From NCBI RefSeq assembly GCF_009497655.1, contig NZ_CP023317.1, forward strand, positions 1,951,501-2,015,500: a stretch of 64,000 nt of DNA, read 5' to 3'. Shown here in pieces: positions 26,577 through 45,674 of the stretch. The position numbers and the translations under genes were made by a program. Source of the DNA: Priestia megaterium. Lineage in GTDB: Bacteria > Bacillota > Bacilli > Bacillales > Bacillaceae_H. Within the stretch, counting starts at the first letter, position 1, and each line of letters opens with the position of its first letter. The notes below the pieces were generated by a model, which worked only from the letters and a program-made list of their open reading frames with translations, was not told the DNA's origin and did not search any database.

Positions 26577-26899
26577 GTTACTTTCCTCTTTTCGTTGAAT
26601 AAAATAAATGAAAATATATTTATATATTAAAATGTATAAACAAACAGAAAGCGCTTTATAACGAGTCTTGTAAGAAAGCACACTCTTATGGTATTATGAC
26701 CACTGGATAAAAGAAAGATGGCTTATTGTTTACGCGAGTATCCTTATTTTATGTTCTTAAAAAGATGCAGTTTATTGTTTAAGTACTCATAGAAATACAT
26801 ACGTTGGAGCAGTAAGAGGAACAATTAAAAAATAAGGACGTTTTGCTCTTAAACGATACCACATTCCAGAATCTACATACCAGTTTAGGAGGAGCTAGT
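26577..26899. other. Intergenic region between msrA and nhaC
   Basis: Divergent promoters of both genes must lie here. A sequence AGAAAGCGCTTTAT (26647-26660) resembles a cre site with two mismatches and is not claimed. Otherwise AT-rich DNA without clear structure. Confidence 0.45.
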
Positions 26900-28306
26900 T
26901 TGAACACAACCCGTTTACCATCTATGTGGGAAATAATGATTGTGCTTGCTTTATTTTTAGCTGTTGTTATTTCGTTTGCAACTGTTTTTGATTTACCTAT
27001 TCAGCTCGCTTTATTTATTTCATGGTTTATTGTTATGGCGCTAGGAGTACGACTTGGGTATACGTATAATCAGCTGCAAGGGGCCATTACAAGAGGAATA
27101 TCAAACGGCTTAGAAGCTATTTTAATTTTATTAGCCGTCGGTACGTTAATTGGAACATGGATTGCCGGAGGAGTTGTTCCTTCTCTTATTTATTTTGGAT
27201 TAGAGTTTATTAATCCAACATTCTTTTTACTTGCTACACTTATCATTTGCTCTATTACCTCGATTTCAACAGGAACATCTTGGGGAACGGTTGGTACAGC
27301 CGGAATCGCGATGATGGGAATCGGACAAGGCTTAGGTATGCCGCTTCCTTTAGTAGCTGGAGCCGTGATTTCAGGAGCTTATTTTGGAGACAAGCTTTCT
27401 CCTCTTTCTGATAGTACCATTTTATCTGCGTCAATGGCCCGAGTGAACGTTATCGATCACGTAAAAGCAATGTTAGTATTGGATATTCCTGCTTATCTCA
27501 TTACGGCAGTATTATTTACGGTAACAGGGTTTATGTATGGGGGAAAAGATTTTGATGCTGGACGGGTAGAAGAATTAAAATCTTCGCTGTTGGATACATT
27601 TCACATCAGCGGGTGGATGCTGATTCCGGCTTTGGCTGTCATTGTCCTTTTAGCATTAAAGAAACCTTCTCTTCCAGCAATTGCGGTTGGTTCATTATTA
27701 GGAATTATATGGGCAGTTGTCTTTCAACATATGGATGTGGCGAGCGCATTTAATACGGCTTATGAAGGATTTAAAATTAATACCGACAACACATTTTTAA
27801 GTGAGCTATTAAATCGTGGCGGAATTTTAAGCATGGTCGGTTCTATTATTGTCATTATTTTTGGACTAGGATTTGGCGGGTTATTAGATGAGCTCGGCGT
27901 CTTAGAAGTCCTGCTATCTAAATTTGAAAAAATTCTTGTCAATTCAGGAAACGTTACGGCTTCTACTATTTTCGTTGGATTATTAGGAAATATATTTGGT
28001 TGTGCGATGTATGTTTCATTAATTTTAACACCGAAAATTATGGAGAAAAGTTACGATAAGTTAAGAATACAGCGTCTAGTGCTTGCCCGTAACTCAGAAG
28101 TAGGGGGAACCTTAACTTCTGGAATGGTTCCGTGGACGGATAACGGTGTATTTCTAGCTACAACGCTTGGGATCTCTACATTCGCTTATCTGCCGTTTAT
28201 GTGGCTCAGTTTTGTCTCTATTATTTTGGCGATTGTTTACGGATATACAGGGAAATTCATTTGGTACGTAAAAGAAGAAAAACAGCGTTCTGCTATAGCA
28301 AAATAA
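26900..28306 (+). CDS. nhaC: Na+/H+ antiporter NhaC family
   Basis: Membrane antiporter exporting Na+ in exchange for protons, for pH and sodium balance. TTG 26900 is chosen because AGGAGG (26887-26892) stands seven bases before it; the frame begins further upstream at 26843 without a ribosome site. 468 residues. About 11-12 membrane helices. Family segments: TSISTGTSWGTVGTAGIA, AVISGAYFGDKLSPLSDST and, near the end, NSEVGGTLTSGMVPWTDN. Single gene. Directly after its stop codon begins a copy of a dispersed repeat whose hairpin should act as its terminator. Confidence 0.88.
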   Translation: MNTTRLPSMWEIMIVLALFLAVVISFATVFDLPIQLALFISWFIVMALGVRLGYTYNQLQGAITRGISNGLEAILILLAVGTLIGTWIAGGVVPSLIYFGLEFINPTFFLLATLIICSITSISTGTSWGTVGTAGIAMMGIGQGLGMPLPLVAGAVISGAYFGDKLSPLSDSTILSASMARVNVIDHVKAMLVLDIPAYLITAVLFTVTGFMYGGKDFDAGRVEELKSSLLDTFHISGWMLIPALAVIVLLALKKPSLPAIAVGSLLGIIWAVVFQHMDVASAFNTAYEGFKINTDNTFLSELLNRGGILSMVGSIIVIIFGLGFGGLLDELGVLEVLLSKFEKILVNSGNVTASTIFVGLLGNIFGCAMYVSLILTPKIMEKSYDKLRIQRLVLARNSEVGGTLTSGMVPWTDNGVFLATTLGISTFAYLPFMWLSFVSIILAIVYGYTGKFIWYVKEEKQRSAIAK

Positions 28307-28487
28307 AAGAGGCTGGGACAAAAGAGTTTTAGTTGAAGAAAAATCCGAACGATGAATTGAGATTCTTAATGAAGAATCAACTTCGTTCGGATTTTTTCAT
28401 TGGTATGATAAACGTAGGTTTCATGTATTTCGTTTCTTCTAGCTGTTGATCGAATTGATTTAGTCATGTCTCGAGTTCTTTTTGATC
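28307..28487 (+). repeat. Dispersed terminator-bearing repeat, copy A
   Basis: First of three related elements (others at 35576-35737 and, inverted, 44464-44639). Order of shared blocks: AAGAGGCTGGGACAAAA, TTTTAGTTGAAG, a hairpin, ATGATAAACGTAGGTTTCATG, a TTGAT..TTAGTCATGTCTC block and AGTTCTTTTTGATC. The hairpin arms are AAATCCGAACGA (28341-28352) and TCGTTCGGATTT (28383-28394), with an inner hairpin GATTCTT/AAGAATC (28361-28378) and a T-run after it. It starts right after the nhaC stop and its end overlaps the stop of the convergent gntR gene. Confidence 0.85.
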
Positions 28488-29139
28488 AAATCATTTCTGG
28501 GTATTCGATTTTCCAGTGAACATTTTGAAGGTAAAGCTGAACATCGGCCTTTTTTTTCTGCTGCAGAAGTTTTAGAATATGGCGGTGATGTTCATTCATT
28601 ACGCGTAAAATGGCGTATAGCTCTTTGGTGTCATCGCTAAAGTACGTTTGTCTGATGAATCCGTCTTGTAAAGACATAAGCTGTTCTTTTAAGGTCACAT
28701 TATCGCATCGGTTCAAATATACTCGATGAAAATACGTTTGATATTTTTGATAATCCTGATAATTTTCTGATTCAATCGAAACATCGATTTTTTTAATAAG
28801 CTCATCCATCTTCGTAAAATCTTCTTCAGTTAAGTGATCAATCGACAAGGCAGCTGCCAGACCATCTAAAGCACCGACGATTTCAAATACTTCTAGTTTT
28901 TTGTGTGTATCAATTTCCTTTACAGTAAACCCTCTGCGCGGTCTGTATTCTAATAGGTTGTCTGAAGCTAATTTAATAAGCGCTTCTCTTACAGGCGTTC
29001 GGCTGACATTCAGCTGAGAACAAATACTGGCTTCATTTATTTTGTCGTTAGGCAGCAGTGTACCGTCTTGAATTTGACTTGCTATGTAGTTATATACATG
29101 ATCCTTTAATGAATGATAAATCATAGGCCCCTTGTTCAT
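28486..29139 (-). CDS. GntR-family regulator with FCD domain
   Basis: Transcription regulator of the FadR subfamily. A winged helix lies at about residues 8-75 (LKDHVYNYIASQI, then SQLNVSRTPVREALIKLASDNLL, the classic recognition helix). An FCD ligand-binding domain covers about 80-215 and has the expected metal-binding pattern region (Asp/His in FHRVYL and HHRHILKLL). The ATG follows GGGGGA. It is divergent from the amino-acid permease at 29504, whose leader contains a 22-bp palindrome of the TTGTATACAA type bound by this subfamily, so it most likely controls that permease. The inducer is unknown. Confidence 0.88.
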   Translation of the reverse strand: MNKGPMIYHSLKDHVYNYIASQIQDGTLLPNDKINEASICSQLNVSRTPVREALIKLASDNLLEYRPRRGFTVKEIDTHKKLEVFEIVGALDGLAAALSIDHLTEEDFTKMDELIKKIDVSIESENYQDYQKYQTYFHRVYLNRCDNVTLKEQLMSLQDGFIRQTYFSDDTKELYAILRVMNEHHRHILKLLQQKKKADVQLYLQNVHWKIEYPEMI

Positions 29140-33483: not shown

Positions 33484-34158
33484 ATGAACGTACTGCTAGC
33501 AGAAGATGATTTGCAGCTAGGTGAATTAGTTAGTTATATGCTGAAGAAAAAAGGAGGCTATAACGTCGAATGGGTGACGGAAGGGAATGATGCATATGAC
33601 TATGCATCTGAAGCACATTATGATGTGTTAATTCTTGACTGGATGATGCCCAATGGAGACGGAATCGATGTATGTAAACGTCTAAGAAAAGAAGGATACG
33701 CCGGGGCCATTCTTATGTTAACAGCAAAAGATGCGGTTCAAGATCGTATACAAGGCTTAGATGCGGGAGCGGATGATTACGTTATTAAGCCATTTGAAAT
33801 TGACGAGCTGCTTGCAAGGCTTCGCGCTTTGGCTCGTCGTAATTATGCACCAATTTTAGAAGAAGAAGTAGAGATTGCCAGCATGATATTAAAAAGAGCA
33901 AGTCAAACCGTGCAGTTTGACGAGGAGTTTATTCAATTAAGTCCTCGTGAATTTCAACTGCTAGATTTTTTAGTAAAAAACAAAGGACAAGTTCTTTCCC
34001 GGGATATTATTTTAGACAGGGTATGGGGATATGAATCAGATGTTTCGATTAAAACGATTGATGCGACGGTTAAACTTTTGCGAAAAAAACTAGAGAAATT
34101 TAACAAACAAGATCTTATTCAAAGCATTCGCGGAGTAGGCTACAAAATTGAAAGCTAA
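33484..34158 (+). CDS. OmpR-family response regulator
   Basis: A 224-residue two-component regulator. The receiver domain (1-115) has the acidic pocket EDD, phosphoacceptor Asp52 in LILDWMMP and Lys102 in VIKPFE. A winged-helix DNA-binding domain (about 128-222) shows LSPREFQLLDFLVKNKGQVLSRDIILDRVWG and RGVGYKI. Ribosome site AAGGAAGGAG before the ATG. Its end overlaps the start of the histidine kinase gene by 11 bp, so they form a pair. No target or B. subtilis orthologue can be named with confidence. Confidence 0.92.
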   Translation: MNVLLAEDDLQLGELVSYMLKKKGGYNVEWVTEGNDAYDYASEAHYDVLILDWMMPNGDGIDVCKRLRKEGYAGAILMLTAKDAVQDRIQGLDAGADDYVIKPFEIDELLARLRALARRNYAPILEEEVEIASMILKRASQTVQFDEEFIQLSPREFQLLDFLVKNKGQVLSRDIILDRVWGYESDVSIKTIDATVKLLRKKLEKFNKQDLIQSIRGVGYKIES

Positions 34159-35575
34159 ACTTCTTACGAGGGCTAAACAGAAAGTAAAACAAAAAGTAAA
34201 GCAAGATTTATTCAGCCAGACGCAAAATCGTTTAACATTCCGATACAGCGCATTGCTAATGCTGTTTCTGCTTTTATTCGTATTTATTGTTTATGCATTG
34301 GTGTATGTGGTTGTATCCAATAGTCAGCAGCAAAACTTAAATAGCATGTTAAAACAAGAGTCTCGAATTGTCCAAAGCATCTTAATTAAACAAGCGGTAA
34401 ACAGTTCGAATCAACAGTCGAAAGAAGAGTATAAAAACATTGTCGTAGCCGGTGAAGACCAGTTTTTTTATTATGTCATCAGTCCTGAAGGGGACCTTAT
34501 TATGGGCAACGAAGCGAGTGAGCGTCTTCGCTCTAACTTGTTAGATTTAATTGATGGATGGATCCCTATTGAAAACGAAGTGCGAAAAGAACGAATAAAA
34601 GCCCCGCGTCCTAGTTTTGAGCACATCGAAGGAGTAAAAGGGCAAAACGGGGAAGGCAAAATAGATATTGATTTAATGATGGCGGGGGAACCTATTTTTT
34701 ATAAAGGCCAATTTTTAGGGATGCTTTATATTGGAAAAGACGTTTCGTTTCTTTATCAGCTGTTAAAGTGGCTCCTCATTATTATGCTGAGCCTTACGGT
34801 ACTGTTTGTAGGAGTAGCCATTTATATCAGCCGCTTAATGTCAAAACGTGCCATGGTCCCAATTGAAACAGCTTTCCAAAAGCAAAAAGAATTTGTGGCG
34901 GATGCATCCCATGAGCTAAGGACACCGCTTAGCGTTATGCTTTCTTCTATCAACGCTTTAGAAATGCAGGAGGAAGTAACAGAAGATCCCTTCTCTAAAA
35001 AATTAATTAATAATATGAAAGCTGAAGTGAAGCGGATGACGAGTCTCGTCAGTGATTTACTTACGCTTGCACGCTCAGACTCTAATAAAGTAGAAAAAGC
35101 AATGATGCCATTTGATATTACAGATGCGGTACAAAAGGTAATGGAATCGGTTGAAACTCTAGCGATTTCTAAACATATTGATTTGCAGCTGGATACGCCT
35201 GAAAAATTAGTCGTAACTGGAGATCAAGAGCGTCTCACTCAGCTGATTTACATTTTGTTAGACAATGCGATTAAATATACGACTCCTCATGGAAGTGTAA
35301 ACATTCAAGTGGTTCAGCACGGGAGTGAATGTACATTAAAAGTACGTGATACAGGGGTTGGAATTCATCCCGACGAAAAGGATCGAATCTTCGACCGCTT
35401 TTATCGTGCTGATAAATCCCGATCCCGTCAAATGGGAGGTCACGGGCTAGGCCTAGCAATCGCTAAATGGATCGTAGAAACACATAAAGGCAAAATTGAT
35501 GTAGAAAGTGAACAAGAAAAAGGAAGTACATTTACAGTAAGGTTGCCAATGTCACAAAAAGTAAAAAAGAGTTAA
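34148..35575 (+). CDS. Membrane sensor histidine kinase, partner of the regulator upstream
   Basis: A 475-residue kinase starting at TTG 34148, inside the end of the regulator gene (translational coupling). Two membrane helices (about 30-55 and 205-228) flank an extracellular sensor domain of about 150 residues. Then come a short linker, the phosphoacceptor His255 in DASHELRTPLSVM, and the ATPase domain with DNAIKYT, RDTGVGI and GGHGLGLAIAKWIV. The lysine/glutamine-rich N-terminus (KAKLLTRAKQKVKQKVKQ) is unusually long and basic. Directly after the stop codon begins copy B of the dispersed repeat, which should act as terminator. Stimulus unknown. Confidence 0.9.
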   Translation: MKAKLLTRAKQKVKQKVKQDLFSQTQNRLTFRYSALLMLFLLLFVFIVYALVYVVVSNSQQQNLNSMLKQESRIVQSILIKQAVNSSNQQSKEEYKNIVVAGEDQFFYYVISPEGDLIMGNEASERLRSNLLDLIDGWIPIENEVRKERIKAPRPSFEHIEGVKGQNGEGKIDIDLMMAGEPIFYKGQFLGMLYIGKDVSFLYQLLKWLLIIMLSLTVLFVGVAIYISRLMSKRAMVPIETAFQKQKEFVADASHELRTPLSVMLSSINALEMQEEVTEDPFSKKLINNMKAEVKRMTSLVSDLLTLARSDSNKVEKAMMPFDITDAVQKVMESVETLAISKHIDLQLDTPEKLVVTGDQERLTQLIYILLDNAIKYTTPHGSVNIQVVQHGSECTLKVRDTGVGIHPDEKDRIFDRFYRADKSRSRQMGGHGLGLAIAKWIVETHKGKIDVESEQEKGSTFTVRLPMSQKVKKS

Positions 35576-35737
35576 AAGAGACTGTGACAAAATTAGTTGA
35601 AGGAAGATCCGAACGAGTTTGATTCTTGATGGAGAATCAAACTCGTTCGGATTTTTTTATGGTTAGAGTGGAGGTAGGTTTCATTTATCCAATTTGTTCG
35701 TCCGTTGATTTAGTTATGTCTCCATCTCTTTTCAGTT
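35576..35737 (+). repeat. Dispersed terminator-bearing repeat, copy B
   Basis: Same block order as copy A: AAGAGACTGTGACAAAA, TTAGTTGAAG, hairpin, GTAGGTTTCAT, TTGATTTAGTTATGTCTC and TCTTTTCAG. The hairpin is a perfect 19-bp stem (35607-35625 with 35634-35652) over an 8-base loop, followed by seven T. It starts at the stop codon of the kinase gene, as copy A does with nhaC. Confidence 0.87.
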
Positions 35738-44463: not shown

Positions 44464-44639
44464 GATGAAACAAAGAACTTGAGACATAGCTAAAACAGCC
44501 CAATCAATAGCTAAAAGCAATTAAACACATGAAAGCTACGTTTACCATGACAACGAAAAAATACGAAGTAATAATCAATCATTTTGATTATTACTTCGTA
44601 TTTTACTTCGACTAAAATTCTTTTATTTCAGCCTCTTGA
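44464..44639 (-). repeat. Dispersed terminator-bearing repeat, copy C (inverted)
   Basis: Read on the minus strand it has the same blocks as copies A and B: AAGAGGCTGAAATAAAAG, TTTTAGTCGAAG, hairpin, GGTAAACGTAGCTTTCATG, TTGATT..TTTTAGCTATGTCTC and AAGTTCTTTGTTTCATC. The hairpin is a perfect 19-bp stem (44559-44577 with 44585-44603), but its arm sequence (AAATACGAAGTAATAATCA) differs from A and B while pairing is kept. It starts within a few bases of the stop codon of the flavin monooxygenase gene and follows that gene's direction. Confidence 0.85.
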
Positions 44640-45674
44640 TTAGTAAGCTGCTAGAGTTTGATTCGTTTTCTGAGCATCTCCTTCACTGAAAGCTTCTTTT
44701 AAGAGCGTATAAGACCGCTTTTTTTGTTCAAAATCTTGAAGAGCAGTAAGAATAATAAATTCATCAATAGAAAATGCCTGTTTCAAAGCTTGGAGCTTTT
44801 GACGAACGGTTTCTTTTGTACCGTATATGACGTTTGCTTCTTTTTCTTCAATTCGATAGCTTTCTTTAGACTGCTGACCAAATTCTTCCGCTTTTTCTTT
44901 GGAGCCTATTGTAGCGGATTTCCCATTTTGTAAGTATACTTTAAATATTTTTGTGCTGGATGCTAATGCTTTTGCTTCTTCTACGGTATCCGCTACGATG
45001 ACGGAAAGGGCAACGAAAAGCGAGCGTGCATGGGATGAAACGTGCTGATTATAGACGGAAATCGCTTCTTCTAGCACTTTTTGATCACCATTAATGAATT
45101 GAGCAAATACATAAGGAAGATTTAGAGATGCCGCTAGCTCTGCGCTTGAAGCACTTGCTCCCAGTAAAAACATATCTGCTGCTTTTTGGGGCCTTGGATA
45201 GGCTTTTAAACCGTAAAGAGGGTGATCTTCCGGCAGCGTATCGTTTAGGTATTGTTTAAGTTCTATCAGTTTGTCTGTTAAGGACTTAGTGGGCTGAGAG
45301 TTTTGTTGCAAGGCTTGAGTAGAATGAGGTAGTCCTCCTGGTGCTCTGCCGATTCCAAGATCGATGCGATTTGGAGATAATGAGGCTAAAACGTTAAAAT
45401 TTTCTGCTACTTTATAAGGGCTGTAGTGTTGAAGCATAACACCGCCTGAGCCGATACGGATATGATGTGTTTTGGCGAGCAGGTGAGAAATTAACACTTC
45501 GGGTGATGATCCTACAACATGTTCAGAGTCATGATGCTCCGCTACCCAAAAACGGTGGTAGCCAAGTTCTTCTGCTAGCTGAGCTAATTGAATGGTATGC
45601 TGAAATGCATCTTCAGCACGCTCACCTTCATAACGCGGGCTTTGATCTAAAATACTTAATTTCACTGAAAACAC
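44640..45674 (-). CDS. cmoO: LLM-class flavin monooxygenase, CmoO-like
   Basis: Bacterial-luciferase-like FMN-dependent monooxygenase (344 residues), similar in length and motifs to YtmO/CmoO of B. subtilis: LSILDQSPR, HRFWVAEHHD, VGSSPEVLISHLLAKT, RIGSGGVMLQHYSPYKVAE and DLGIGRAPGG. It has the usual TIM-barrel pattern. In B. subtilis cmoO lies inside the sulfur operon; here it is divergent from it, reading leftward from the shared promoter region. AAGGAG precedes the ATG. It probably oxidises S-modified cysteine derivatives with reduced FMN. The family also contains enzymes with other substrates, so the role rests on context. Confidence 0.78.
   Translation of the reverse strand: MFSVKLSILDQSPRYEGERAEDAFQHTIQLAQLAEELGYHRFWVAEHHDSEHVVGSSPEVLISHLLAKTHHIRIGSGGVMLQHYSPYKVAENFNVLASLSPNRIDLGIGRAPGGLPHSTQALQQNSQPTKSLTDKLIELKQYLNDTLPEDHPLYGLKAYPRPQKAADMFLLGASASSAELAASLNLPYVFAQFINGDQKVLEEAISVYNQHVSSHARSLFVALSVIVADTVEEAKALASSTKIFKVYLQNGKSATIGSKEKAEEFGQQSKESYRIEEKEANVIYGTKETVRQKLQALKQAFSIDEFIILTALQDFEQKKRSYTLLKEAFSEGDAQKTNQTLAAY

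Follow-up and report, generated by a model that had tools for sequence, protein, structure and literature searches.

A high-copy IS1182-type miniature element that very probably exchanges host terminators for its own in Priestia

Here, we describe a non-coding repeat of Priestia which very probably is a high-copy IS1182-type MITE that swaps the terminator of the host gene for a terminator of its own; its orientation is most likely shaped by selection. The element is present in three copies in the window, that is, the whole 64,000-nt stretch of Priestia megaterium DNA that was analysed. It is bounded by inverted repeats, lies behind genes in a preferred orientation, and occupies sites at which sister genomes carry terminator hairpins that are lost from the filled alleles; its ends resemble those of IS1182-family elements, and an IS1182 remnant from the same genus has a similar core and a similar right end.

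Architecture of the element

The full-length element measures about 330 bp. Of the 96 copies in which both ends were located, 44 fall between 315 and 352 bp, and the remaining ones are shorter, with a minimum of 120 bp (overall range, 120–352 bp). It consists, in this order, of a left inverted repeat (AAGAGGCTGGGACAAAA), a spacer of ~15–20 nt, a hairpin with a T-run, a linker, a GC-rich core that runs from GACTCCTGCGGG to CTTGCACGGAAATCAA in the consensus, and a right repeat (TATGTCTCAACCTC) followed by a T-tract; at lengths of 120–352 bp, it carries no transposase gene. The GC-rich core is missing from all three window copies, which are internal-deletion derivatives of the ~330-bp element. 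Their features are as follows:

28307..28478, + strand: copy 1, deletion derivative, 172 bp (limits from the right-end model)
28307..28323, + strand: left terminal inverted repeat of copy 1, AAGAGGCTGGGACAAAA (read; start from model R1)
28339..28397, + strand: terminator-like hairpin and T-run of copy 1 (limits by eye)
28461..28478, + strand: right terminal inverted repeat of copy 1, TAGTCATGTCTCGAGTTC, with the T-tract next to it
35576..35728, + strand: copy 2, deletion derivative, 153 bp (limits from the right-end model)
35606..35658, + strand: terminator-like hairpin and T-run of copy 2 (limits by eye)
44475..44637, − strand: copy 3, deletion derivative, 163 bp (limits from the right-end model)
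44555..44604, − strand: terminator-like hairpin and T-run of copy 3 (limits by eye)

A preliminary description of this DNA had noted blocks shared by the three copies on either side of a hairpin, a fixed two-sided layout and the lack of an encoded protein; the blocks are evident on reading of the copies, the layout recurs across the family, and no ORF of at least 90 aa overlaps any of the window copies.

The right inverted repeat is present in 96 of the 105 copies examined, with scores of at least 12.7 compared to a maximum of 3.4 in a control of one shuffle per copy, and in 81 of these 96 copies at least 9 of 12 bases of the terminal repeats can pair, G-U pairs being allowed. Pairing of the flanks outside the repeats is weak (5.25 vs 4.98 of 8 positions, a value reached in 3 of 500 re-pairings). 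The internal hairpin covaries across 65 copies, with 91.8% of the cells pairing and changes on both sides in 13 of the 15 pairs; none of 500 shuffles scored as high and slid structures scored far lower, in an alignment that was fitted to the model and is biased towards that structure. As counted in the alignment columns of the same 65 copies, a run of at least 5 T follows the hairpin in 57 copies on the head-first strand vs 25 on the opposite strand. Another hairpin script applied to 105 copies recovered at least 5 T within 8 positions in 35 and the equivalent for A in 20; in our opinion, these counts are weaker because the stem probably swallowed part of the T-run. The hairpin is terminator-like and is predicted to mediate termination.

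No Rfam family matches within the window at the gathering score. Kinship with Rfam families was considered and rejected: sau-5971 and several miRNA families matched full copies far below the gathering score (at best 33 bits, for sau-5971, vs the 90 needed), and the alignments shown correspond to hairpins.

A large family within the genus

The covariance model R1, which represents the left part of the element and was built from 28 copies including all three of the window, matches at least 150 copies in genome G000, all with E values of 3e-7 or better; the window copies score 130.3, 89.0 and 133.7 bits, partly by construction given that they are part of the model. The large genome-wide family surmised from the three window copies is thus real and extends far beyond them. 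When up to 2 mismatches are allowed, there are 242 occurrences of the left-end 15-mer, compared to 63 of the reversed control.

A search of related Priestia genomes, as the preliminary description had proposed, yielded R1 matches in 8 of 10 genomes of the genus, G000 included. At least 150 matches each were found in G000, G001, G006 and G008; G003 has 42, the best of which score strongly, and G002, G004 and G009 have 25–35 weaker ones each (31 in G004 and 35 in G009), with zero matches in G005 and G007. The R1 form hardly extends beyond this genus: 8 of 299 genomes of the class matched, G000 included, in a search with strict filters and 11 candidates scored per genome. The same element resides on a Priestia megaterium plasmid (L151) and on contigs of P. 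aryabhattai (L223, L246). Furthermore, NZ_CP069400.1, a 116-kb plasmid of Priestia megaterium, contains 9 places that match at a loose E limit; the element may thus also travel on plasmids.

Along the G000 chromosome, scored copies are sparse near the contig start, with none below 255 kb and 6 of 150 below 500 kb. Outside the window, at G000:C1:159572-160228, four identical matches to GAAGCTGGTACAAAA are spaced by 210–222 bp, perhaps forming a tandem array.

Position and orientation relative to genes

Copies 1 and 2 directly abut the stop codons of ORFs 26843-28306 (+) and 34148-35575 (+), respectively, and copy 3 begins 2 nt behind the stop codon of ORF 44640-45674 (−); a convergent ORF, 28486-29139 (−), ends 7 nt past the right end of copy 1. 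Across the family, the nearest upstream ORF is on the same strand in 96 of the 105 copies examined with flanks when ORFs of at least 60 aa are considered (99 with at least 80 aa), these 105 of the 150 copies being a non-random set in which the best-scoring ones are over-represented. The distance from the same-strand stop codon to the left end has a median of 5.5 nt and does not exceed 25 nt in 83 of 96 copies, and 14 copies touch or overlap the stop codon. At site 1252703, the stop codon of the empty allele is TAA, whereas those of the filled alleles are TAG or TGA, built with the first bases of the element. For the 59 copies with more than 60 nt of intergenic slack, the median share of this slack on the left side is 0.05. 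Between tandem genes, 64 copies are head-first vs 4 tail-first (one of the latter without a recognised right end); another 33 copies lie between convergent genes, with the second stop codon within 25 nt of the right end in 30 cases, and 4 copies are in other arrangements.

Most copies (128 of 150) also agree with the direction of replication, given a fitted break at 2.3 Mb. Orientation set by replication was rejected: 17 of the 22 examined copies that oppose replication still follow the gene, so that the gene is the better predictor of orientation. Head-first copies most likely predominate because the reverse orientation deprives the gene of a nearby terminator. Alternatively, the same MITE could have its orientation fixed at insertion, through asymmetric target recognition or coupling to transcription, rather than by later selection. 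We consider this rather unlikely, even though it would accommodate both the ratio of 64 to 4 between tandem genes and the 17 of 22 replication-opposing copies that follow the gene: the four tail-first copies lie comparatively close to the model (Mann-Whitney p 0.03, post hoc, n=4), which would fit their gradual removal by selection, the head-first strand has the better T-run (57 vs 25 of 65), and IS1272, according to the accessible part of PMC4923244, goes in both ways.

Empty sites are terminators

Three clusters comprise 11 copies, ten of which were compared with G001, G003, G006 and G008, the copy at 2902822 being left out for want of a flank. The question of empty sites in relatives, raised in the preliminary description, can be answered in the affirmative: at 9 of the 10 sites compared there is at least one empty allele, with 14 empty alleles altogether, most often in G003. 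Six alleles were classed by reading against the automatic filled/empty label, after which the 14 empty ones were refolded; by reading, 1252703 and 2899556 are empty in G003 and 2900752 is empty in G003, G006 and G008, whereas 2899556 is filled in G006. Each of the 14 empty alleles folds as a hairpin followed by 4–8 T, with energies of −14.6 to −21.1 kcal/mol for a 54-nt stretch. At the junctions of the filled alleles, the A-tract and the T-tract are kept and the stem-loop is gone, so that in 14 of 14 comparisons, at 9 sites, the element has entered a hairpin and hairpin sequence has been lost. Thus, given that each empty allele is a terminator hairpin at that very spot, the element replaced the host stem-loop. 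Insertion is likely, rather than loss, because the native stems differ among sites and the filled alleles offer no means of rebuilding them.

In the window, the sites of copies 1 and 2 are empty in G003, where each is a terminator, and the site of copy 3 is filled in G003 and G008 as well, with a short form in G006 and no match in G001. Site 1256147 is filled in G000 only, among the five genomes compared.

These data also bear on a host regulatory or small-RNA element that is retained at gene ends because it has an independent function, the least probable of the explanations considered and one to which we give very little credence. The fixed place behind genes and the conserved structure would fit such an element, but its presence varies among sister genomes at 9 of 10 sites, 2 of 10 genomes of the genus have no match, copy length ranges from 120 to 352 bp through internal deletion, and the Rfam matches stay under the gathering score.

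Relatives outside the genus

The left end was also detected in plasmids of Lactobacillales and Bacillales, with 66 records at a loose limit, of which the 40 listed are from Bacilli. Among the 11 plasmid matches opened, both ends are visible by eye in eight; L142 corresponds to the IS of locus L152 discussed below, L143 is a left end adjoining an ISL3 element, and the match at L149 lies within a gene and lacks the layout. In Enterococcus faecium and L. plantarum plasmids, the shortest relatives consist of nothing but the two repeats, which form a simple hairpin.

In genome contigs, the left-end 19-mer occurs in at least 120 stretches, and the 80 titles among the matches listed are presumably all Bacilli. 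Of 121 such places, 70 have the upstream ORF on the same strand, 40 of them within 25 nt of the stop codon, and 47 have it on the opposite strand; the right repeat, by a strict pattern, is found in 22, and an IS1182-like protein is encoded within 1.9 kb behind the 19-mer in 3. The gene-directed layout is therefore clearest in this genus, being looser at the 19-mer places outside it. Among phage records, 31 matched at a loose limit; 18 of them are Listeria phages without annotation, and the others look like chance matches.

Several variants deserve mention in their own right. The Streptococcus copies of the 19-mer (L180, L181, L188, L190, L204, L254) belong to a different composite, in which a short GAGGCTGGGACAAAAGTCCTAGCCTCT hairpin is combined with a second repeat pair, GAGGTGGGACGACGAAATCG to TCTGTCCCACTCTC. 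In L207, L232, L234 and L245 (Lentibacillus, Alkalibacillus, Paucisalibacillus), the GC-rich core is apparently reversed and the terminator hairpin absent, as judged by eye. In Lactobacillaceae plasmids, an element and an IS1182 copy (L145, L168) are located near tetracycline-resistance genes.

Similarity to IS1182-family elements

One plasmid match of the left end led to L152, an IS1182-family IS on the Limosilactobacillus reuteri plasmid NZ_CP041677.1, with the ends GAGGCTGGGAAAAAACTA and a 570-aa transposase (NF033551, 341 bits vs a cut-off of 270; Pfam DUF772 and DDE). It has a terminator-like hairpin inside each end, and its left end lies ~20 nt behind a stop codon; having been found by its end, L152 is not independent support for the likeness of the ends. 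Among 430 plasmid records with related transposases, 10 loci were opened for end comparison: both ends match GAGGCTGGGACA with up to 3 mismatches in 9 of 10 and with up to 2 in 5 of 10, but because 3 mismatches to a 12-mer end motif are expected, by arithmetic, about twice per locus by chance, weight is given only to matches that are closer or well placed. For L172, a search for the right end found none. All six IS1182 left ends that were read contain a terminator-like hairpin, by eye.

Further matches come from within the genus. The broken IS1182 locus L156 matches the core of the element (83% over 132 bp, E 8e-31) and its right end (75% over 49 bp, E 3e-4; the best E value of a shuffled query was 0.049). 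The broken IS1182 element in G009 carries the MITE core on both sides of a transposase remnant as well as the MITE right end, an arrangement that points to an origin of the MITE from an IS of this type through loss of the sequence between its two end hairpins. In L169, an ISSau3 has a GC-rich, core-like stretch (~290-380) upstream of the transposase, for which BLAST with the Priestia element reported no match.

Searches for the IS1182 transposase (NF033551, E 1e-20 or better) found none in G000, G001, G003, G006 and G008, which have strong copies of the element in common. NF033551 matches occur in 3 of 10 genomes of the genus, G004, G007 and G009, in which element copies number 31 (weaker), 0 and 35 (weaker), respectively. 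A transposase source in the same genome, usual for a MITE, is thus lacking here; this trait is not a defining one, as a MITE may outlive its source.

The missing transposase would also fit a process without transposition, in which terminators are overwritten through recombination or template switching via microhomology in the A- and T-tracts, so that the element would be a spreading terminator. The preservation of both tracts at the junctions and the plain-hairpin relatives in E. faecium and L. plantarum plasmids point the same way. Nevertheless, this scenario seems highly improbable, given that similar inverted repeats bound IS1182 elements that do have a transposase, that an IS1182 remnant resembles the element in the core and the right end, and that the full copies have discrete ends.

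Discussion

We propose that the terminal repeats of the Priestia element serve, or formerly served, a hairpin-targeting transposase of the IS1182 family, with mobilisation presumably in trans by a transposase that was looked for and not found in G000. The targets would be intrinsic terminators just behind genes; upon insertion, the target stem-loop would be lost, with the A-tract and the T-tract remaining, and the element's own terminator hairpin, ~35–40 nt inside the left end, would take over termination of the upstream gene. A tail-first insertion would leave the gene without a nearby terminator, such that head-first copies would be the ones to survive. The short window copies are products of internal deletion. 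The preliminary description had correctly recognised a large, non-coding, two-sided family; it missed the IS1182 inverted repeats, the terminator hairpin, the full length, and the location of the copies directly behind stop codons, where the native terminator was replaced. The comparison it drew with REP and STAR holds insofar as all are small repeats and goes no further.

The kind of element, an IS1182-type MITE related to hairpin-targeting IS, is already known. EFAR of Enterococcus faecalis are miniature elements of ~170 bp that contain two stem-loops; they use stem-loops as integration sites, and most of the target is deleted in the process. They are probably the same as Efa-1, a 163-bp, intergenic double hairpin with 65 copies in E. 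faecalis (PMC2267715); the resemblance to the Priestia element considered here is one of size, structure and target, and the accessible part of PMC2267715 draws no link to IS1182. IS1272, an IS1182-family element of staphylococci, inserts into hairpins, several of them terminators confirmed by RNA-seq, with deletion of part of the hairpin, no target duplication, and both orientations found at one target (PMC4923244, in its accessible part). The same text reports mostly one copy of TnSha1 per strain sequenced. IS1272/TnSha1 thus shares with the Priestia element the hairpin or terminator target and the loss of hairpin sequence but has a transposase, which the Priestia element lacks, and replacement of termination by a terminator of its own is not described in that part of PMC4923244. 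MITEPye1 of Paracoccus yeei has IS1182-family-like ends, with 1–3 chromosomal copies and direct repeats, and the accessible part of PMC11578231 describes no terminator targeting; by contrast, the junctions read in Priestia lack direct repeats and represent stem-loop replacement. The L. reuteri IS of L152 shares the end type and the hairpin inside each end and differs by its 570-aa transposase.

A terminator-replacing element is not described in the accessible parts of PMC2229807, PMC10969869 and PMC3196728. The papers listed in a literature search by sequence string were unrelated, and among the matches listed for Bacillus megaterium or Priestia none concerned this repeat, which does not prove absence. 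In the open-access literature searched, we did not find the built-in replacement terminator, the scale or the gene-directed orientation described.

A parasite that destroys the stop signal of a gene should be harmful, and a replacement supplied by the element itself would explain its presence at 150 or more gene ends. Pairs of native and transposon-derived terminators behind the same gene in sister species would, furthermore, provide a gauge of the effect of a terminator swap on expression. The repeats found across Bacilli possibly have a common origin. It is conceivable, although we lean slightly against it, that IS1182-type elements and MITEs across Bacilli form one superfamily of mobile terminators that remove intrinsic terminators and supply their own. 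If so, hundreds of gene ends could be colonised by such elements at little cost, the superfamily would take in repeats that have been described separately for Enterococcus, Streptococcus, Lactobacillaceae and Bacillaceae, and many seemingly native terminators in genomes of Bacilli would be of transposon origin.
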